In this document: positions 8,778 through 17,798 of the stretch, piece after piece
How positions within the stretch are numbered: position 1 is the stretch's first letter
Layout of the letters: each line of letters begins with the position of its first letter
Origin: Halobacteriovorax marinus SJ
Lineage (GTDB): Bacteria > Bdellovibrionota > Bacteriovoracia > Bacteriovoracales > Bacteriovoracaceae
Reading direction: 5' to 3'
NCBI RefSeq assembly: GCF_000210915.2
Contig: NC_016620.1
Coordinates: 2,542,001 to 2,606,000 of the forward strand
DNA: 64,000 nucleotides
Program-made: the position numbers and the translations under genes
Notes under the pieces: generated by a model
Database searches by the model: none
Told to the model about the DNA's origin: nothing
What the model saw: only the letters and a program-made list of their open reading frames with translations

Positions 8778-9434
8778 TTAATCAAATTGAGTGAATCTAT
8801 ACTCTGAAGAGCTAAAAAGAGATTTGTGCTCTATGACATAGTCCTTGGCTTCACTGATATTTTCAAAAACACCAATGCTCACTCTAAACCATGTACCTTT
8901 ATGCTGAAGGTTTTTTTCGTTAATTATAGTTGTATAGCCTCTCGCCTTAAATCCCTTTGCGAAAACTTCTGCTTCATCGACAGAGGGAAATGATCCGACT
9001 TGAATCGTATACTTACCACTTAACTTATCTCTAGAAGACTCCTTAGGTGCTTCCATCTGAGGAACTTCTGAAACTTCACTGCTCGTAGGACTTGTCACGT
9101 CAGTGTTCATAGTTGAATCACTATTCGTGGCCGTGCCAGAAAACTCTTGCTCAACTTTCTTTTCTAGGGCCATATCAGTTTTTTCTTTGAGGGCCTTGTA
9201 AGTCTCATCATCAGAATTAACTGACTTTTCAATTTCATTAACCTTCTCTTCTGCTGGTGAGAGTATTTCAACTTTATTGACGTCCTCTTTACTATAGCCA
9301 GATTTTTCAAATGAATTGTTAACCCCTATCTTTACTCCCAAGAGAAAAGATGTGATTGAAATCAAAATCATGAAAACAAAGATTAAGAATACTTCTTTTT
9401 TTGCAAATACATAGAGTTTAGTTTTATCTTCCAT
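8778..9434 (-). CDS. SPOR-domain membrane protein
   Basis: 218 residues. A short cytoplasmic start is followed by one membrane segment (about residues 15-33, VFLIFVFMILISITSFLLG), a long acidic Ser/Thr-rich linker, and a C-terminal SPOR domain (about 139-215) beginning YTIQVGSFPSVDEAEVFAKG and containing WFRVSIGVF. SPOR domains bind denuded glycan strands at division septa. This bitopic layout matches FtsN- and DedD-like proteins; which one cannot be decided. Divergent from the Tad/Flp locus across a 170-bp intergenic region. Confidence 0.8.
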   Translation of the reverse strand: MEDKTKLYVFAKKEVFLIFVFMILISITSFLLGVKIGVNNSFEKSGYSKEDVNKVEILSPAEEKVNEIEKSVNSDDETYKALKEKTDMALEKKVEQEFSGTATNSDSTMNTDVTSPTSSEVSEVPQMEAPKESSRDKLSGKYTIQVGSFPSVDEAEVFAKGFKARGYTTIINEKNLQHKGTWFRVSIGVFENISEAKDYVIEHKSLFSSSEYRFTQFD

Positions 9435-9570: not shown

Positions 9571-9600
9571 ACCCCTTAAACATTGAACTTTTCAAGGGGT
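9571..9600 (+). promoter_or_regulatory. RNA hairpin that would hide the pilin ribosome-binding site
   Basis: ACCCCTT (9571-9577) is the perfect complement of AAGGGGT (9594-9600), and three more A-T pairs can form inside with one bulged C. The right arm AAGGGG is the best ribosome-binding site for the Flp prepilin ATG at 9605. The structure would therefore block pilin translation until melted or bound. The pairing is seen in the sequence; regulation is inferred. Confidence 0.55.
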
Positions 9601-9604
9601 AAAT

Positions 9605-9784
9605 ATGAAAGCGAGCAAGAAAATTTTAAAAAATCAGAAAGGCCAAGGACTTATGGAGTACATAATCATCTCTTCTTTGGTAGGTATATTTTGCCTAGTC
9701 GCTATGAAGCAATTTGGAGAAAGTGTCCATACACGTGTAGAAAAAATGAGAAAGGATATAGTGAAACATATCCCTGCGAGATAG
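9605..9784 (+). CDS. flp: Flp-type (type IVb) prepilin
   Basis: 59 residues: a positive leader of 13 residues (with KKILKNQKG), then QGLMEYIIISSLVGIFCLVAM. Cleavage after Gly13 leaves Gln at +1, Glu at +5 and Tyr at +6, the signature of Flp pilins processed by a Tad prepilin peptidase. The hydrophobic helix (residues 19-35) and a short basic tail are as in the family. AAGGGG precedes the ATG at 5 nt, but lies inside a hairpin. First gene of the plus-strand Tad locus. A longer frame over the same bases (from 9583) is out of phase and is not the gene here. Confidence 0.85.
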   Translation: MKASKKILKNQKGQGLMEYIIISSLVGIFCLVAMKQFGESVHTRVEKMRKDIVKHIPAR

Positions 9785-9786
9785 AT

Positions 9787-10026
9787 TTGTACCTTCTTAG
9801 AACACTCTCACTATTTAAAATAGCAACTCTCTCACTCTACTTCTCCTGGTCCATTGCCCAGGAGTCAGAGTGTCAATCACATAAACATCACCTAATTCTA
9901 AAGAAGATGACTAAGGCGATCGTTTTAAATAAGAAAATGAGAGTCTTTAAATGCAAACAATTAGTCACCATCAATATAAGAAACTCAAAAATTGAAACTA
10001 AGAATTACTTTTCTCTAAAAGAGTGA
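9787..10026 (+). CDS. Small secreted protein in the Tad locus, unknown
   Basis: 79 residues from TTG 9787, three bases after the pilin stop. N-terminus YLLRTLSLFKIATLSLYFSWSIAQE is a plausible signal peptide (cleavage after SIA), followed by a basic 50-residue domain with two Cys (ESECQS and FKCKQ). The frame is also open upstream across the pilin, so the start is set by the signal peptide, not by a strong ribosome-binding site (only GCGAG upstream). Ends just before the next gene. No family recognised; position suggests a pilus accessory part. Confidence 0.45.
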   Translation: MYLLRTLSLFKIATLSLYFSWSIAQESECQSHKHHLILKKMTKAIVLNKKMRVFKCKQLVTINIRNSKIETKNYFSLKE

Positions 10027-10028
10027 AT

Positions 10029-10616
10029 ATGAAACTAGATCAAAGAGGAAGTACTCAATTACTTCTATGTCTCTTTCTACTAATGGCCCTAAGTGGTATT
10101 AGCGCTATAACAGTTAAAAAGCTTATTTATCTTCATAAGAATAGACTAAGACTACACTCATTAATATGCATGAGAAAATCTCACTTCTTTCAAGCTAAGT
10201 TTATTAATCAAATAAATTCAACCAATAAACATATTAGAATCTCCTACTACGCATCTTTACTTCCTATTCCCAGTGTCTCTTCTGCAGCAAAAACATCTTT
10301 AACCATTCTAAAGGCCAAGCAACAAATAAATCTGATTAGCTTCTATAGAGATATTTATAAAGTAGAAGAGTGTTCAAAAGTAACGAAGATAAACATCTTT
10401 TCATCTTCTTTCTACCAACTTAAATCAAAATTCATATTCATGAGGAATATAGATCACACAACGAGAGTTTCAATAAAGAAACAAGTAAAGTTTCGCTATT
10501 TCACATCTGGAAAATTATCTTTTAAAACACCTCCCGTCATTTTCAAATCATCCTTTAAGCTGGATAACCGCTTTGACATAAGGCCTAAGGTCTTTACGAA
10601 GGTGTATGAGCTATGA
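10029..10616 (+). CDS. TadE/TadG-like minor pilin candidate
   Basis: 195 residues from ATG 10029, chosen because AAGAG lies 6 nt upstream; a GTG at 10023 is less likely. The N-terminus KLDQRGSTQLLLCLFLLMALSG has the short basic leader, RG(S) processing site and hydrophobic helix of TadE/TadG pseudopilins, but lacks the usual Glu at +5 (Leu-rich instead). The rest is a basic, beta-rich domain with Cys at two sites (LICMRK, VEECSK). Overlaps the next gene by 4 nt (ATGA). Confidence 0.5.
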   Translation: MKLDQRGSTQLLLCLFLLMALSGISAITVKKLIYLHKNRLRLHSLICMRKSHFFQAKFINQINSTNKHIRISYYASLLPIPSVSSAAKTSLTILKAKQQINLISFYRDIYKVEECSKVTKINIFSSSFYQLKSKFIFMRNIDHTTRVSIKKQVKFRYFTSGKLSFKTPPVIFKSSFKLDNRFDIRPKVFTKVYEL

Positions 10617-10813
10617 GCAATAGAGGTTCTAGTGAACTTGAAGTTTCCATTTTTCTCTTTGCTCTGAGCTTAAGCTTTTTTTCATTCGTAAAAATAAGTA
10701 CATATTTAAGAGATATAGAACAAAGAGATCTAAATGAGTTTGAAAGAAAATGGAATAAGTTCTCCTCTAGAACTATTCAAAGAGTCTACAAAGAGAAAGA
10801 ATCAATCAGATAA
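10613..10813 (+). CDS. Small TadE/TadF-like pseudopilin candidate
   Basis: 66 residues. NRGSSELEVSIFLFALSLSFF near the start reads as a prepilin: cleavage after Gly5 puts Glu10 at +5, then one hydrophobic helix (about 11-28) and a charged amphipathic tail. ATG overlaps the stop of the preceding pilin-like gene (ATGA), so they are coupled. Being so short, it resembles Flp or TadE/F minor pilins; the exact class is unclear. Confidence 0.55.
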   Translation: MSNRGSSELEVSIFLFALSLSFFSFVKISTYLRDIEQRDLNEFERKWNKFSSRTIQRVYKEKESIR

Positions 10814-11195
10814 GAAAAAGCTTTGTATTCAATTCTTGGTGATATTTATACTCTCTCATTTTGCGAGAACTCTACTACAGACTCCTGAAGTGGTCATAAA
10901 GTCAGAAGAAGTAATCAGCAAGCGAGATGGTTACACGAGATTAGAAATAAAAGCTTATTCAATCATCCCAAATGATCAAAAACTTGCAAACCTTATACAT
11001 ACAACGAGTGCAACTGAGATACAGGGTGTTCATATTCTCCAAAGAACTATTCACGAAGAAGGGCAATTCACTGTGTTGCTAGATATTCCAACCAAGTATT
11101 ACTCAACATTTGTAATGAAGCCTAATAATTGGAAGCTAATTCCATTTAGAGAAATACCACTTAAAAGGAGAAAGAACTTTGAAATCATTTTTTAG
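10734..11195 (+). CDS. Membrane-anchored protein, possible CpaB/RcpC homologue
   Basis: 153 residues; the ATG lies 80 nt inside the previous gene, with AAAGAG upstream. A 30-residue cytoplasmic start is followed by one membrane helix (about 31-49, LCIQFLVIFILSHFARTLL) and a periplasmic domain. The pieces GVHILQRTIHEEGQ and FTVLLDIPTKYYSTFVMKPNNW resemble the 'G..l.r.i..G' and 'pVd...a..v.pGd.Vd' pattern of CpaB, which sits in the periplasm between inner membrane and secretin. The match is weak and by eye; position between pilins and secretin fits. Confidence 0.4.
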   Translation: MSLKENGISSPLELFKESTKRKNQSDKKKLCIQFLVIFILSHFARTLLQTPEVVIKSEEVISKRDGYTRLEIKAYSIIPNDQKLANLIHTTSATEIQGVHILQRTIHEEGQFTVLLDIPTKYYSTFVMKPNNWKLIPFREIPLKRRKNFEIIF

Positions 11196-11484
11196 ATTAA
11201 TGCTCTTTAGTACATTGAGCATATCTCAAGTCCAAGCCATGAAAGATACACCTTTAGTTCTTATAACTTATGAAGGCAGCGATATTGAATCATTTAATCA
11301 GATTCAGAAAATTATGAATGAGCACTTTCAAGTAAGTAAAGAACTCTACCAAGTTGAGTTAGGTCCATGTAAGAAGAAACACAGCTTGGCCACTCATGTT
11401 TGTATTGATAAAGATCTCAATGTGACAACTCTCTCGCGAAATAATGAAGTCATGGAAGATATGCTTGGAATTTATTGGAAATAA
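11179..11484 (+). CDS. Small secreted protein in the Tad locus
   Basis: 101 residues from TTG 11179, with AAAAGGAG 8 nt upstream, a strong site that fixes the start. Signal peptide MKSFFRLMLFSTLSISQVQA, then a mature domain of about 81 residues with two Cys (GPCKKKH and HVCIDKD), likely a disulfide. Overlaps the previous gene by 17 nt. No family recognised. Last gene of the first block of the Tad locus; the basic-protein gene of opposite orientation follows. Confidence 0.6.
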   Translation: MKSFFRLMLFSTLSISQVQAMKDTPLVLITYEGSDIESFNQIQKIMNEHFQVSKELYQVELGPCKKKHSLATHVCIDKDLNVTTLSRNNEVMEDMLGIYWK

Positions 11485-11507
11485 AAAAGCCCACAATGAG
11501 TGTGGGC
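11482..11507 (-). terminator. Second of two tandem terminators for the small basic gene
   Basis: On the minus strand GCCCACA, loop, TGTGGGC (11489-11507) is followed by TTTTTT (11488-11483): a standard intrinsic terminator. On the plus strand the hairpin is followed by A residues, so it acts on the minus-strand transcript. Confidence 0.75.
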
Positions 11508-11537
11508 AAAAAAATACGGGCCGCTAATAGGACCCGT
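11508..11537 (-). terminator. First of two tandem terminators for the small basic gene
   Basis: On the minus strand ACGGGTC and GGCCCGT (11537-11516) can pair over 7 bp (one G-U) and are followed by ATTTTTTT (11515-11508). It lies about 30 nt after the stop codon of the 42-residue basic protein and is directly followed by a second terminator. Confidence 0.65.
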
Positions 11538-11565
11538 GCATAATAATCTCGACGATTAATCTAGA

Positions 11566-11694
11566 TTACTTATCTTGGTGAATCGCAAACTTAGGAGTTG
11601 TTCCCTTGTTTCTATTAGCAGCCTTTCTCTTAGCACCAGCTTTAACTTTCTTATTTGCTCTTCTAGTTTTAGTAATTCTTGTATTAGAAACCAT
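11566..11694 (-). CDS. 42-residue highly basic protein, ribosomal-protein-like
   Basis: MVSNTRITKTRRANKKVKAG begins a 42-residue protein with 9 Lys, 5 Arg and one acidic residue; it ends KFAIHQDK. The ATG has GGGGAG 6 nt upstream and the stop is followed by two intrinsic terminators, so this is an independently expressed gene although it is short and lies antisense between two blocks of the Tad locus. Composition (Ala/Lys/Arg-rich, AKRKAANRNKGTTP) resembles small ribosomal or nucleoid proteins. I cannot assign a family. Confidence 0.75.
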   Translation of the reverse strand: MVSNTRITKTRRANKKVKAGAKRKAANRNKGTTPKFAIHQDK

Positions 11695-11770
11695 GATTTC
11701 TCCCCTATATCTTAAAATCTTCAATTTTTATTTCATTTCTACCCATAGTAGAAACAAGTTTTTACCTACT

Positions 11771-13072
11771 TTGGGCCAAGTTGTCAAAGTTTTAATCCTT
11801 AACTACTTAATTATCGTATCACCAAAATCTCTAAGTAGCTGTAAAAACGATACTACGAATATCCATCATATAAATATTGCCGTGGGAGAATACTATAGAA
11901 TCCCAACTCCAAACCTCGAAAACTACGCAGTGAGTAATAAAGAGCTCTTATCCGTGAGGCATAGAAAAGCGCAGGAAGGCCTCCTGATTCGTGGAAAACA
12001 TCAAGGTTTTAGCACGATCAAGGTATGGAATAGTCATCAGGTAGAAAAGAAGTATCATATTTTTATTCAAACAAAGATAGGCTTGGCAAAGATGAAGCTC
12101 TTGGCCCTTAATTTTGAACAAATGGGAATTGATACTGAATTGTCTTCTTCTAAGTTGAAATTATGTTCAACAATAACAGAGCTCAATCAATTTAAAAGTA
12201 TTTCCTCTCTTCTGAAGTCTAGTGAGAAATCAATCAATATAGATAATCAACTACTCATCTCAAAAGAACTTCAAAGAGAATTGGCGAACTTAATTTATCC
12301 AAAGTTTTTGAAAAATAAGGTTTCTGATATTATTTGCCAATTTCATCAGATGCCAATCCGTTGTAAAGTTCCTAAATCAAATCTTGATATTGATAGTCTT
12401 GTTAAATATTGGTTTCATGAAATTCCAATAGAAATACATCAATTTCAAGATGAACTAACATTAGATAATTTTAAACTTAAAACAAAATTGATTCTTCTTG
12501 AGTCTGCTTCCAGTGAGGTTCTAGCACTTGGTCTCGATAAGATTTCTAACAACCTCTATGCCTTAATAAGAAACGATCTCAACTCTTTTATCGGAGAGAA
12601 TATAATCAACTTTGAAAATAAGAGAGTTAAGCTCTCATCAATTGCTACTCCTGAGATTATAACAAGAGTTAATAATGAAGGGGAAATTAGTATAGGTAGC
12701 GAGATCCCCTTTACTAGAAAATCTAAGGAAGAATATGTTACGAATTGGAAATTCGCCGGGCTCAAAATAAAAACAAAGTTAGAAAAAGAAAATAATGAAT
12801 ACTTTCTAAATATTGAAACTGAGCTCTCTAGGCCAATGCAAAGTTCGGGTGCCTCAACAATCAGTTCAAATAAAACAAAATCTAGAGTAAAAATCACTCA
12901 GGGGAAATCTCTTAAAATTACAGATATAGGGCACCAAGGTATACAACACCAAAACACCTCTCTTCCCTACTTATCGAAGATCCCTTTGCTGGGAAAGCTT
13001 TTCACTTCTAGCTCAGAAATTGAAACTTATAAGAATATACAGCTCTACGTACAACTTGAGAGAATGCCATGA
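11771..13072 (+). CDS. Tad pilus secretin (CpaC/RcpA-like), divergent
   Basis: The outer membrane gate for the Flp pilus. Start uncertain: TTG 11771 gives 433 residues with a hydrophobic export signal (VLILNYLIIVSPKSLSSC); ATG 11693 would overlap the small basic gene. The N-domain INIAVGEYYRIPTPNLEN...VSNKELLSV...IRGKHQGFSTIKVW matches the CpaC 'pilus formation protein' N-terminal pattern. The C-terminal half has secretin features: VKLSSIATPEIITRVNNEGEI, IGSEIPF, and LPYLSKIPLLGKLF near the end. The middle region is poorly conserved. ATGA overlap with cpaF. Confidence 0.75.
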   Translation: MGQVVKVLILNYLIIVSPKSLSSCKNDTTNIHHINIAVGEYYRIPTPNLENYAVSNKELLSVRHRKAQEGLLIRGKHQGFSTIKVWNSHQVEKKYHIFIQTKIGLAKMKLLALNFEQMGIDTELSSSKLKLCSTITELNQFKSISSLLKSSEKSINIDNQLLISKELQRELANLIYPKFLKNKVSDIICQFHQMPIRCKVPKSNLDIDSLVKYWFHEIPIEIHQFQDELTLDNFKLKTKLILLESASSEVLALGLDKISNNLYALIRNDLNSFIGENIINFENKRVKLSSIATPEIITRVNNEGEISIGSEIPFTRKSKEEYVTNWKFAGLKIKTKLEKENNEYFLNIETELSRPMQSSGASTISSNKTKSRVKITQGKSLKITDIGHQGIQHQNTSLPYLSKIPLLGKLFTSSSEIETYKNIQLYVQLERMP

Positions 13073-14178
13073 ATATAGCAGAAGATATTTATAGAATTTC
13101 GAGAGCATTTATTCGTGACTCCATCAATAGAGGAAAGTTTCCAGATGTGAATCAAATCATTGGTAACTTAAACCTACAATTCGGTGAAGACTGGGAAATT
13201 CTCTTACCAAAAGAGAGCTTACAAATATGGTACGACTCAATTGCAACGATGAACTTTTTAAAGCTAAAAGAAGGGCTTGAAGAGATTATTATTCACGATG
13301 AAGAAAATATTCAGTATTTCTACAAAGATAAAATTACGAAGAACTCTATTTCATTAGACTTCGAAGATTTAGATTTATCTTATAGGCTTCTCTGTCTACA
13401 AAATAAAGTCGACTGGAATATTACAAAGCCATTTGTGAGTTTTAGATCAAAGATCGGTTATACTAATATTAGGGTTTCTCTCACTCACTCCTCTCTCTCT
13501 CAAGTTCACTCACATAAATGTTCTATTCGAATAATCTCCACGGAGAGCTTTGCACTGGAGACTTTCTTTGAAGATAGAAGTGAATGTGAAGTTGTAAAAA
13601 GGCTTTTTAAAGAAAAGAATAATATAGTGATCTGTGGATCAACTGGTAGTGGTAAAACTTCATTTATCTCTTCACTCCTAAAAGAGGTGGGACAAAGTGA
13701 ACACACTTTGATTATAGAAGACACACTTGAGATAAACTCTCCTAATAGAACGACAACCAGGCTAGTAGCGAAGGATCAAGAGAATTACTCTTTAAGAGAC
13801 TATTGCTCTTACGCTCTTAGGTTAAGGCCAGATCGACTCATCCTTGGAGAGATCAGATCTAGTGAAGTTGTTCCGTTAATATTGAACTCCAATACTGGCC
13901 ATAAGGGAATGCTAACAACGATTCATGCCAATAGTGCTATTGACTGTCCAGATCGAATATCTACCTTACTCTCACTCTATTCTGGAATTAAGGGAATGAA
14001 TAACGACATGGCACTGACTCTAATTACAAAGGGAATAGATAATATAATTTTTCTAGAAAAGAAGAAGGTAAAGTCTGTAATAAAATTGCTGGGGCACGAG
14101 AGTGGGAAGGTAAATTACGAAGACGTTATAGAATCTTCGAATGAACCTCTCTTACAAAATCTTCAATATCTTCGCTAA
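13069..14178 (+). CDS. cpaF: Tad pilus assembly ATPase (CpaF/TadA family)
   Basis: Cytoplasmic hexameric ATPase that drives Flp pilus assembly. 369 residues. Walker A GSTGSGKTSF (190-199), Asp box EDTLEI (about 217-222), Walker B LRPDRLILGEIR (about 251), His box GHKGMLTTIHANSA (about 280). It lacks the usual long N-terminal region of CpaF by some 80-100 residues but the N2 and catalytic domains are complete. Starts inside the secretin stop (ATGA). Its last 53 nt overlap lysC on the other strand. Confidence 0.88.
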   Translation: MNIAEDIYRISRAFIRDSINRGKFPDVNQIIGNLNLQFGEDWEILLPKESLQIWYDSIATMNFLKLKEGLEEIIIHDEENIQYFYKDKITKNSISLDFEDLDLSYRLLCLQNKVDWNITKPFVSFRSKIGYTNIRVSLTHSSLSQVHSHKCSIRIISTESFALETFFEDRSECEVVKRLFKEKNNIVICGSTGSGKTSFISSLLKEVGQSEHTLIIEDTLEINSPNRTTTRLVAKDQENYSLRDYCSYALRLRPDRLILGEIRSSEVVPLILNSNTGHKGMLTTIHANSAIDCPDRISTLLSLYSGIKGMNNDMALTLITKGIDNIIFLEKKKVKSVIKLLGHESGKVNYEDVIESSNEPLLQNLQYLR

Positions 14179-15208
14179 GAATTCGTAGAGCAACATACTC
14201 ATTTGTTTGCTTATAGATTTCATAATCACTGAGATTATTTAGGATAGAGACTTCTTCACTTAAGAGGTTTTCACCAATTATTGAGAGGATATCCCCCTCA
14301 AGGGCAAGACCTACGACACCATCTCTCTTTGGGAGGTCAAATATCCTTGAACCAACTTCACTTGGTAGTAGAGTTGACTTCACAACAACAGGAAACTTTG
14401 CTCTCATGGCCGGTTCAAGAGTTCTTTCAAATAGAACCTTCGCTCCAAATTGAGCAAGCCTAGAAGCGTGATCATAACTTAACTGCTCTATGAACTTTGC
14501 ACTTGGTACAATTCGCGGATCACAGGTTGCGACTCCGGCAACATCTGTCCAAATAAAAACTTCACTTGCGCTAAAGGCTTCCCCTAAAAGAGTTGCACTA
14601 TAGTCAGAACCTTCTCGTCCTAGAGTTGTTGTCTCACCACTTATAGTAGAACCTATAAAACCTTGTGTAACAATGAGGGCATCCTCAATTGCAGGCTTCC
14701 AAAGTTGGACTCTCTGTGAGATTTCACCGATCAGAGGAGAAGCGCAATTCCACGAATCGTTAGTAATCATAATCTCTCTAATGTCCTTTAGAAGAATTGC
14801 TCTGTCGTGCTGAATACTAAGGTATGAAGAAAGAATTAAGCTAGAGAAGCGCTCACCTAAACTATAGAGAGCATCCATTTTCTTTGGAAGAATCTCTCCA
14901 TCACCGAGAATACTTTGCGAGCACATTTGTAGCTCACTCTCAAGTTCACTGAGAGAGAGACCAATATCAAGTTCCAAGTCGTCTGCAATGGCCCTATGTC
15001 TTAAGGTGAGGGATTCTAATTGCTTTTGCATTAGATTCACTTCATTCAAGGATGCGGACTTTGCAATTTGCTCTAACTCGTTTGTGGTATTCTTTGTCGC
15101 ACTTACAACAACGATTCCACAATTTGAATGATTGAGAATAATTTCACTTACTCTTTTCATGGCAGTAGCATCTTGAACACTACTGCCACCAAACTTAAAG
15201 ATCTTCAA
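14126..15208 (-). CDS. lysC: Aspartate kinase
   Basis: Phosphorylates aspartate, first step to lysine, threonine, methionine and diaminopimelate. 360 residues, shorter than the usual 400-450. The kinase part is complete: KFGGSSVQDA (residues 4-13), GERFSSLILS, TLGREGSDYSA, and WTDVAGVATCDPRIV. The C-terminus has room for only one ACT-like unit (GVVGLALEGDILSIIGENL onward), so feedback control may be reduced or different. Start is TTG; ettA ends 3 nt upstream, so the two are probably one transcript. Confidence 0.88.
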   Translation of the reverse strand: MKIFKFGGSSVQDATAMKRVSEIILNHSNCGIVVVSATKNTTNELEQIAKSASLNEVNLMQKQLESLTLRHRAIADDLELDIGLSLSELESELQMCSQSILGDGEILPKKMDALYSLGERFSSLILSSYLSIQHDRAILLKDIREIMITNDSWNCASPLIGEISQRVQLWKPAIEDALIVTQGFIGSTISGETTTLGREGSDYSATLLGEAFSASEVFIWTDVAGVATCDPRIVPSAKFIEQLSYDHASRLAQFGAKVLFERTLEPAMRAKFPVVVKSTLLPSEVGSRIFDLPKRDGVVGLALEGDILSIIGENLLSEEVSILNNLSDYEIYKQTNEYVALRILSEDIEDFVREVHSKIL

Positions 15209-15211
15209 AAA

Positions 15212-16897
15212 TTAATCTCTAGTAAGCTTCTTATAAGTATGTCTCTTAGGATTAACGGCCGCGTCACCTAAACGCTTACGCTTGTCTTCTTCATAGTCAG
15301 CGAAATTCCCTTCAAACCAAATGCTCTCTCCATTACCTTCAAAAGCAAGGATATGAGTGGCGAGTCTATCTAAGAAAGCTCTATCGTGGGAAATAATTAC
15401 GGCACAACCAGCAAAGTCCACAAGAGCTTTCTCGAGAGCTTGCAGAGTATTTACGTCAAGGTCGTTTGTAGGCTCATCCAGCAGTAAAACGTTTCCACCA
15501 GTGAGAAGAGTTGCTGCTAAATGCACTCTATTTCTCTCTCCACCAGAAAGCTCACTAACTTTCTTCTTTTGGTCTTCACCTGAGAAGTTAAACTTAGCAA
15601 TATAGGCCCTTGAGTTTACTTCTTGCTCACCTAATTTAATAAATTCAGTTCCACCAGATACCGTTTCATAAATCGTCTTCTCAGGATCAAGAGCACGCCC
15701 TTGATCAACGTAACTTAACTTCACTGTATCACCTACTTTAAAAGTACCACTTGTAGGCTCTTGCTCACCAGTGATCATTCTAAAGAGAGTTGTCTTACCA
15801 GCACCGTTGGCACCGATAATACCTACAACACCACCAGGAGGTAGTTGGAAGTTTAAGTTATCGTAGAGAACTTTATCATCAAATGCTTTAGAAACATTTT
15901 CAGCTTCAATAACAGAGTTTCCAAGACGTGGCCCAGTAGGAATAAAGAGATCGTTAGTTTCGTTTCTCTTCTCTTGAGAAGACTTAAATCTCTCATCATA
16001 ACTCTTGATTCTTGCTTTTGACTTTGCCTGTCTTGCCTTAGGAGAACTTCTAATCCACTCAAGTTCCTCTTTCATGGCCTTTTGCCTCTTAGACTCAGTT
16101 TTCTCTTCCTGAGCAAGACGCTTCGATTTCTGCTCTAGCCAATCAGTATAATTTCCTTCAAATGGAATTCCTTGTCCTCTATCGAGTTCTAGAATCCATC
16201 CTGCAACATTATCAAGGAAGTATCTATCGTGGGTTACAGCAATAACTGTACCTTTGTATTGTTGTAAGTGACGCTCTAACCACCAAACTGTTTCAGCATC
16301 AAGGTGGTTTGTTGGCTCATCTAGAAGGAGGATATCTGGCTTTTGTAAAAGAAGTCTACAAAGTGCAACCCTTCTCTTCTCACCACCTGAAAGGACACCA
16401 CACTTTTGATCACTTGGAGGACATCTTAGTGCTTCCATCGCAAGGTCTAACTTGCTGTCTAGTTCCCAAGCCTCTGCGTGATCAAGCTTATCTTGAAGCT
16501 TGGCCTGCTTATCTAATAGTTCATTCATTTCATCATCGCTCATTGGCTCTGAGAATTTCATAGAAATCTCATCGAATTGAGCAAGCATATCTACAACTTC
16601 TTGGCACCCTTCCTGAACAATTTCCTTAACTGTTTTATCTGGATCTAGTGTAGGCTCCTGCTCTAGGTAACCAACAGTATATCCCTTTGCCATATGTGTT
16701 TCACCGAGGTGATCTTCATCAATACCAGCAAGAATCTTTAGTAGTGTGGACTTCCCCGCACCGTTAAGACCTAAAACACCAATCTTGGCCCCGTAAAAGT
16801 ATGAAAGTGAAATATTTTTAAGGATGTGTTTGCTCTTAATTACCTTTCCAACTCTATTCATTGAATAGATGATTTGCTTATCATTTGTTTGGGCCAC
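15212..16897 (-). CDS. ettA: Energy-dependent translational throttle protein, ABC-F ATPase
   Basis: Ribosome E-site ABC-F protein that gates the first elongation step according to ATP/ADP. 561 residues, standard. Two ABC domains: Walker A GLNGAGKST and GANGAGKTT, signatures LSGGEKRRVALCRL and LSGGERNRVHLAATL, Walker B LLLDEPTNHLD and LLLDEPTNDLD, and between them the charged linker with EELEWIRSSPKARQAKSKAR, the EttA-type arm. GTG start with GAGG upstream. Forms an operon with lysC. Confidence 0.95.
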   Translation of the reverse strand: MAQTNDKQIIYSMNRVGKVIKSKHILKNISLSYFYGAKIGVLGLNGAGKSTLLKILAGIDEDHLGETHMAKGYTVGYLEQEPTLDPDKTVKEIVQEGCQEVVDMLAQFDEISMKFSEPMSDDEMNELLDKQAKLQDKLDHAEAWELDSKLDLAMEALRCPPSDQKCGVLSGGEKRRVALCRLLLQKPDILLLDEPTNHLDAETVWWLERHLQQYKGTVIAVTHDRYFLDNVAGWILELDRGQGIPFEGNYTDWLEQKSKRLAQEEKTESKRQKAMKEELEWIRSSPKARQAKSKARIKSYDERFKSSQEKRNETNDLFIPTGPRLGNSVIEAENVSKAFDDKVLYDNLNFQLPPGGVVGIIGANGAGKTTLFRMITGEQEPTSGTFKVGDTVKLSYVDQGRALDPEKTIYETVSGGTEFIKLGEQEVNSRAYIAKFNFSGEDQKKKVSELSGGERNRVHLAATLLTGGNVLLLDEPTNDLDVNTLQALEKALVDFAGCAVIISHDRAFLDRLATHILAFEGNGESIWFEGNFADYEEDKRKRLGDAAVNPKRHTYKKLTRD

Positions 16898-16994: not shown

Positions 16995-17798
16995 TTATAA
17001 AAGCATTGTTACAAAACTAAAGAGATAAACAAAATAGCTGAGAAAACCAGCGATAAGTAGAGAGATAAATTTGGCAGCATTCATAAATTCCTGAAACTTC
17101 TTCTGCCCCGTGGCCCTTAAAAACGAGAGTTCATCTTCTAGCTCCGGCAAAACTTCCACTAGACCATCCCCACTTTCTTGCCAATGCGAAAGAGTTTTAG
17201 CAAAGAGCTTATCCCAGCTATGGTAGCGCTTATTTGAAGTTTGACCAATTGAGTCCCAATCAATATTTTTAATAACTCTTCCCACCGAAAGCCCACTTGC
17301 AGAGAGAGTTTTAACAATCAATAGATTCTTTAGACGAATAATTCCTCCGCGAATAAAGATCCGGTTTAAAAGCACACCACTTATATGTAGAAAGCTTAGT
17401 CCAAATACTTGAAGGAAGATAATGACAAAGTAGGTCTCACTCTTAGTCTCAAACATTGACCTGGTAATGAGAATCATCATTAAAATAAGTATCCCCATAA
17501 TGAACTGCTGAAAGTAAGCTCCGTGAAGAACACTTTTATTTTTCTTCTCTTCGCGCATAGAGCGAAAGGCTTCTTTCTTTAAAAGAAGTAAGGATTCATT
17601 GGCCTTAGCACCATAGAGTTTCCTGACTTCGAGTAAGAGTTTTGCCAATCTATAAAGCTCCCCCTCTACAGCCGGAGAAGATACTTCTGCTCCCTCAATT
17701 AAGCGCACAACTCCCTTATAATCCTCCCCTTTAGCTCGAAGAAGACTCTTAGGTCTTAGAAATAAAAATAAAGGAAGGAGTGCTACGAGATATTCCAT
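16995..17798 (-). CDS. TadB/TadC-like inner membrane platform protein (candidate)
   Basis: 267 residues: membrane helix at the N-terminus, a cytoplasmic region (about 20-100), two helices near 107-150, a second cytoplasmic region, and a C-terminal pair of helices (ISLLIAGFLSYFVYLFSF). SASGLSVGRVIKNID and the stretch GDGLVEVLPELEDELSFLRATGQKKFQEF read like the GspF/TadB domain, where helical bundles end in membrane helices. It lies 2.8 kb from cpaF across lysC and ettA on the other strand, so it may supply the missing platform of the Tad locus. AGGG precedes the ATG. By-eye match only. Confidence 0.5.
   Translation of the reverse strand: MEYLVALLPLFLFLRPKSLLRAKGEDYKGVVRLIEGAEVSSPAVEGELYRLAKLLLEVRKLYGAKANESLLLLKKEAFRSMREEKKNKSVLHGAYFQQFIMGILILMMILITRSMFETKSETYFVIIFLQVFGLSFLHISGVLLNRIFIRGGIIRLKNLLIVKTLSASGLSVGRVIKNIDWDSIGQTSNKRYHSWDKLFAKTLSHWQESGDGLVEVLPELEDELSFLRATGQKKFQEFMNAAKFISLLIAGFLSYFVYLFSFVTMLL

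Follow-up and report, generated by a model that had tools for sequence, protein, structure and literature searches.

The Tad-like Kil system of Myxococcus kills prey (PMC8460266), and in Bdellovibrio bacteriovorus predation requires the canonical Tad pilins flp1 and flp2 and also flp4, a non-TAD pilin, while flp1, flp2 and flp4 mutants could still attach to prey (PMC5430801). In the same work, flp3 (bd3297) was classed as not TAD-associated, was found to be silent, and could be deleted without a predation phenotype; three non-TAD flps were counted in Halobacteriovorax marinus SJ (PMC5430801). In B. bacteriovorus, bd3306 and bd3307 correspond to pilQ and cpaF, respectively (PMC3818213), and a search of freely accessible papers found none uniting flp3, bd3306 and bd3307 as one machine.

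A compact Tad-like locus is present in H. marinus SJ (genome of 3,435,933 + 1,973 bases), within a window of 64,000 nucleotides, the whole stretch of DNA analysed, whose coordinates are used below. It shares the secretin, the RcpC ring, the CpaF motor and the logic of a Flp fibre with Myxococcus Kil, Caulobacter Cpa and Pseudomonas Rcp-Tad. Unlike Kil and the classical Tad systems, it appears to possess an RcpC limited to the D2 domain and a single platform gene, with no TadV, CpaE or TadD at the locus. What the locus encodes is a real machine of Tad type, ancient and divergent and forming a new variant, for which a mechanism can be proposed from its parts, and this very divergent second Tad system is conserved across Bdellovibrionota. 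Probably, it is an ancestral type IVc (Tad-type) machine that this phylum has as its second pilus system, with the protein encoded at 16995-17798 as its platform.

Gene content and conservation of the locus

The gene set occupies 9605-14178 on the plus strand and codes for a Flp prepilin, two small pilin-like proteins and two further small ones that are exported or membrane-bound, along with a minimal RcpC/CpaB, a secretin and CpaF (Table 1). An initial annotation had placed a Flp prepilin, small proteins, a CpaB-like protein, a secretin and CpaF here, and the open reading frames, Pfam matches and conserved gene order bear this out, with a fifth small gene, the prepilin-like 10613-10813, to be added to its list. 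The ATGA-type overlaps it described do not run unbroken through the locus, a conserved minus-strand gene (11566-11691) standing between 11179-11484 and the secretin gene. In a Pfam search, the secretin and the ATPase were matched, and none of the small genes of H. marinus was.

Table 1. Features of the Tad-like locus and its neighbourhood (window coordinates)
Feature	Coordinates	Strand	Remarks
SPOR-domain membrane protein	8778-9434	-	Pfam SPOR 1e-11; divergent neighbour of flp
Flp-type prepilin, 59 aa	9605-9784	+	motif, orthologue profile
small protein, 79 aa	9787-10026	+	TTG start; N-terminal hydrophobic segment
minor-pilin/TadE-G-like protein, ~196 aa	10029-10616	+	RG(S) followed by a hydrophobic helix; invariant Cys at two positions
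short prepilin-like minor pilin	10613-10813	+	NRG/SSELE, then hydrophobic helix
minimal RcpC/CpaB (modelled), 153 aa	10734-11195	+	one membrane helix and D2 ring domain, without SAF/D1
predicted periplasmic protein, ~100 aa	11179-11484	+	conserved cysteines
very basic protein, 41 aa	11566-11691	-	MVSNTRITKTRRANKK...KGTTPKFAIHQDK; conserved
secretin	11771-13072	+	Pfam Secretin (PF00263) E 2e-15, pil_N 0.012
CpaF/TadA-type ATPase without fused CpaE domain	13069-14178	+	PF00437 E 5e-30
lysC	14126-15208	-	unrelated gene between ATPase and platform
ettA	15212-16897	-	unrelated gene between ATPase and platform
T2SSF-like inner-membrane platform (putative), one gene	16995-17798	-	two cytoplasmic helical repeats; Pfam T2SSF weak, 0.008

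Gene order was retained in 20 of 20 Bacteriovoracaceae loci (four from congeners and 16 from other genomes of the family, covering other species and genera), with one or two small slots not cleanly called in a few of them. The recurring series consists of Flp, proteins of ~90 and ~200 aa, a prepilin-like protein of 60-90 aa, a membrane protein of ~165 aa, an exported protein of ~100 aa, the secretin and CpaF. In comparisons with two congeners, every gene tested had a pN within 0.05-0.38 and a pS within 0.64-0.84, and by this measure the genes of the locus are under purifying selection. A coding signal of the small genes is therefore present in relatives, and the recurrence of their order and sizes, together with pN values far below pS, shows that they are not chance reading frames. 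Other families place the two parts of the locus separately, the Flp/minor-pilin part next to a SPOR gene and the secretin-CpaF part adjoining the small basic gene and the platform gene; the H. marinus locus unites the two parts.

The secretin, the ATPase and a small basic protein

The secretin reading frame is open from 11606, and its true start is probably the TTG at 11771. The ATPase has CpaF (8rkd) as its best match of solved structure (E 5e-41, residues 24-361); among NCBIfam models, it falls between TadA, VirB11 and TrbB, with no model above its cut-off. In the ATPase tree, it groups with TadA-type ATPases, separate from the PilT and GspE of the same genome, and its family falls in one clade with CpaFs from the second loci of Bdellovibrionaceae and of two other families (support 95/90), with both canonical CpaE-CpaF fusions outside. 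The orthology of the ATPase is thus phylum-wide. A search of genome contigs with CpaF returned as close named relatives only Bacteriovorax and related MAGs, beyond which similarity fell off sharply to generic TadA proteins.

The 41-aa basic protein matches no family among the Pfam and NCBIfam models searched. Its mean inter-genus identity is 66%, it occurs in 58 of 97 genomes phylum-wide, and it adjoins the secretin gene in many families; it looks like an uncharacterised small protein of ribosomal type.

A reduced RcpC

Sequence searches of Pfam and the PDB gave no relative for the protein encoded at 10734, and hhalign with its family profile gave no match to the canonical CpaB or to a 160-aa protein of B. 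bacteriovorus HD100. Its AlphaFold model (built from an 18-sequence alignment, pLDDT 82) has RcpC (9gzr) as the best fold match, with a Foldseek probability of 1.00, although the E-value was 0.006; the superposition falls on RcpC residues 119-268 (VIA Z 7.4 over 86 residues, against 4.2 for the next row, an unrelated one). Since these residues correspond to D2, which makes the C12 ring, and the linker L3 (PMC12307814), the protein as modelled is an RcpC with a membrane helix and D2, lacking D1. The CpaB-like character initially proposed for this membrane protein is thus confirmed, by fold, the sequence searches being blank. The initial suggestion of a divergent, lineage-specific Tad variant is likewise supported.

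The Flp pilin and the small proteins

The Flp prepilin is predicted to be cleaved after G13 (KG/QGLMEY), leaving a mature protein of ~46 aa. The motif GxxxxEY is invariant in 19 orthologues (G13/QGLME18-Y19 in the window copy), as are G13, Q14, E18, Y19, C30 and G38, with the invariant cysteine lying within the membrane helix. Pfam Flp_Fap was matched by 12 of the 19 orthologues (best 1e-5), the window copy itself being unmatched, and the orthologue profile was detected in 94 of 96 genomes of the family, with a sharp fall outside it. Mean inter-genus identity is 47% for the pilin and 36% for its own CpaF ATPase.

Among the other small proteins, the slot of 9787 is kept in nearly all relatives (pN 0.38 against pS 0.77). 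The 10029 family shows invariant G9, C49, N68, C117 and R141, shares its slot with Bdellovibrio, and had no match in Pfam. The profile of 10613 also matches, within the H. marinus genome, a 309-aa reading frame just 3' of gspF (E 1.5e-5) and, weakly, the canonical Tad pilins (E 0.006-0.01).

Instead of a surface pilus, such parts could make up a secretion device whose pseudopilus is short and confined to the periplasm: the pilin is better conserved than the motor, unlike a typical variable surface pilin, and two exported non-pilin proteins are encoded alongside the secretin. This reading is nevertheless rather unlikely, as a short Flp-type pilin, an RcpC ring and a TadA-type ATPase are typical of pilus-forming Tad systems and no evident substrate is co-encoded. 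A surface pilus, used for something other than obligate prey attachment, is the most likely role.

The canonical Tad system and the Bdellovibrio counterpart

A complete canonical Tad locus is located at 180.3-188.2 kb of the H. marinus genome, with TadC apart at 3.2288 Mb. It encodes three Flp pilins, TadV, TadE-like proteins, CpaB (SAF + RcpC), CpaC, a CpaE-CpaF fusion and TadB. No TadV is encoded at the window locus, and two A24 peptidases are found elsewhere in the genome; likewise, CpaE/TadZ is neither encoded at the window locus nor fused to its CpaF, while the canonical locus carries a fused CpaE. The lack of TadV and CpaE noted initially thus holds for the locus and not for the cell, and the assumption of a single system falls with the discovery of the canonical locus; the window locus, still real, is therefore a second Tad machine in this genome and not the sole one. 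Both have Flp, RcpC, a secretin, a TadA-type ATPase and a platform, whereas TadV, a full SAF + RcpC CpaB, the CpaE-CpaF fusion and separate TadB and TadC distinguish the canonical system. The canonical TadC lies in an FHA/cell-shape cluster, and a YD-repeat/RHS-like gene follows 3' of the canonical tadB, like bd0109 in Bdellovibrio.

In B. bacteriovorus HD100, the matching Flp lies at 3.216 Mb and is followed by a TadE-like protein, a 244-aa protein, a prepilin, proteins of 160 and 291 aa, a histidine kinase and a secretin. By position and gene count, the counterpart of the window locus fits flp3-bd3306-bd3307. The gene order was taken from locus L187, and CpaF is complete in L174, L190 and L197. 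Flp, a TadE-like protein, minor pilins, a short CpaB-like protein, an exported protein, a secretin and CpaF occur in the same order at both loci, and the CpaFs belong to one clade; the HD100 locus differs in the insertion of a histidine kinase and other genes and in a likely platform made of two short genes 0.45 Mb away. Identity of the window pilin with the predation-essential flp4 is ruled out: the HD100 match at 3.216 Mb fits bd3297 and not bd2719/2720. Of the three non-TAD flps counted in H. marinus, one is probably the window flp.

These correspondences also bear on predation. A pilus for prey attachment or invasion, the former suggested in the initial annotation, would accord with the requirement for flp1, flp2 and flp4 in B. 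bacteriovorus (PMC5430801) and with the killing of prey by Kil (PMC8460266). It is distinctly improbable, because the counterpart flp3 is silent and its deletion has no effect on predation, and even flp1/2/4 mutants still attached (PMC5430801); a role in prey attachment is therefore without support.

The probable platform gene

In H. marinus, the gene at 16995-17798 is parted from cpaF by two genes, lysC and ettA. Eighteen genomes carry the two on a single contig, and in 17 of these they lie 1.8-4.1 kb apart (13.6 kb in the exception); in seven further genomes, all draft assemblies, they are on separate contigs. In three other families (f8, f12 and f17), a reading frame of 314-352 aa is convergent to the same CpaF with no ettA between, either adjacent (81 bp in L209, 46 bp in L211) or one or two genes off. 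The profile of these homologues, which finds members across many families, aligns with that of the window platform over its full length (hhalign, 243 columns, 94%, E 1.4e-7). Three of them match Pfam T2SSF (1.5e-4 to 0.04), two by the N-terminal half and one by the C-terminal half.

In HD100, a tadB-like gene (259 aa) followed by a tadC-like gene (145 aa) that overlaps it forms a pair standing alone at ~3.669 Mb (L199, 8308-9512), and this pair is likely the platform of the flp3-bd3306-bd3307 system. The C-terminal half of the f8/f12/f17 family matches the tadC-like protein (83%, E 8.5e-6) and the N-terminal half the tadB-like protein (31%, E 5e-4), with no cross-match between halves; the half-matches of the window family itself are weak. 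The pair sits among cysK- and metB-type genes and is kept in four Bdellovibrionaceae genomes.

The AlphaFold model of the window protein (pLDDT 84) had no T2SSF match in a PDB fold search, which is uninformative: its matches were all of a generic helical kind, such as IE1 and BAR domains, at Z <=11.9, a range that is warned of for helical bundles. Alignments of the platform profile to the canonical TadB (5%) and TadC (0.6%) by hhalign used single-sequence templates and are uninformative. Apart from it, the T2SSF proteins detected in this genome are all accounted for by PilC, GspF, TadB and TadC, which by elimination leaves 16995-17798 as the candidate platform. Proximity to CpaF, the convergent homologues, the half-matches and this elimination thus indicate what seems to be a single two-repeat platform gene, split off by lysC and ettA here and divided into two genes in Bdellovibrio. 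The linkage to CpaF is conserved, and the pairing of 16995-17798 with the window Tad system, which we infer from gene neighbourhood and homology, is well supported, upholding the split-off TadB/TadC-like platform of the initial annotation. Borrowing of the canonical TadB/TadC platform, with 16995-17798 as an unrelated or repurposed membrane protein and conserved ettA neighbour, is very improbable: the gene does form a separate operon with ettA, stays beside it even where the Tad genes have moved away (L204, L205), and has a weak T2SSF signal (sub-threshold Pfam matches, 0.008 in the window and 1.5e-4 at best among homologues), but in other families full-length homologues directly adjoin the same CpaF with no ettA in between, and the canonical system owns its CpaE-CpaF, TadB and TadC set.

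Proposed mechanism and significance

For the second pilus machine, we propose that a prepilin peptidase from another locus would process Flp and the small pilin-like proteins, the canonical TadV (180.9 kb) and PilD (132 kb) being candidates. CpaF may then power assembly by acting on 16995-17798 as the single platform with two repeats, and a thin fibre would pass through the secretin and a ring of D2-only RcpC, with its base or tip presumably made of the small pilin-like proteins. More tentatively, and with a probability we place somewhat below even, the locus may represent a phylum-wide minimal Tad subclass, with TadB and TadC fused into one two-repeat platform and an RcpC that has shrunk to the ring domain, inherited vertically beside the canonical system and serving a task other than predation.

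The locus would provide a place for orphan "non-TAD" flps of predators, by extension for flp3 of Bdellovibrio and, among the three of H. marinus, probably for one, and would set a second conserved Tad apart from the predation-essential Tad set. With its apparently single platform gene and D2-only RcpC, it offers a natural minimal system for probing the core of the Tad motor.

Neighbouring genes

The SPOR gene remains divergent beside flp in many Bdellovibrionota families, even with the secretin-CpaF part elsewhere, and often together with manC. The SPOR protein is a possible accessory of the Tad locus and might conceivably be tied to placement at the septum or the pole. On the other flank, lysC was not found between CpaF and ettA in loci L074, L075 and L084. 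In H. marinus, lysC converges on cpaF and the two genes overlap at their 3' ends by 53 bp (14126-14178), and the same arrangement is seen in congeners.
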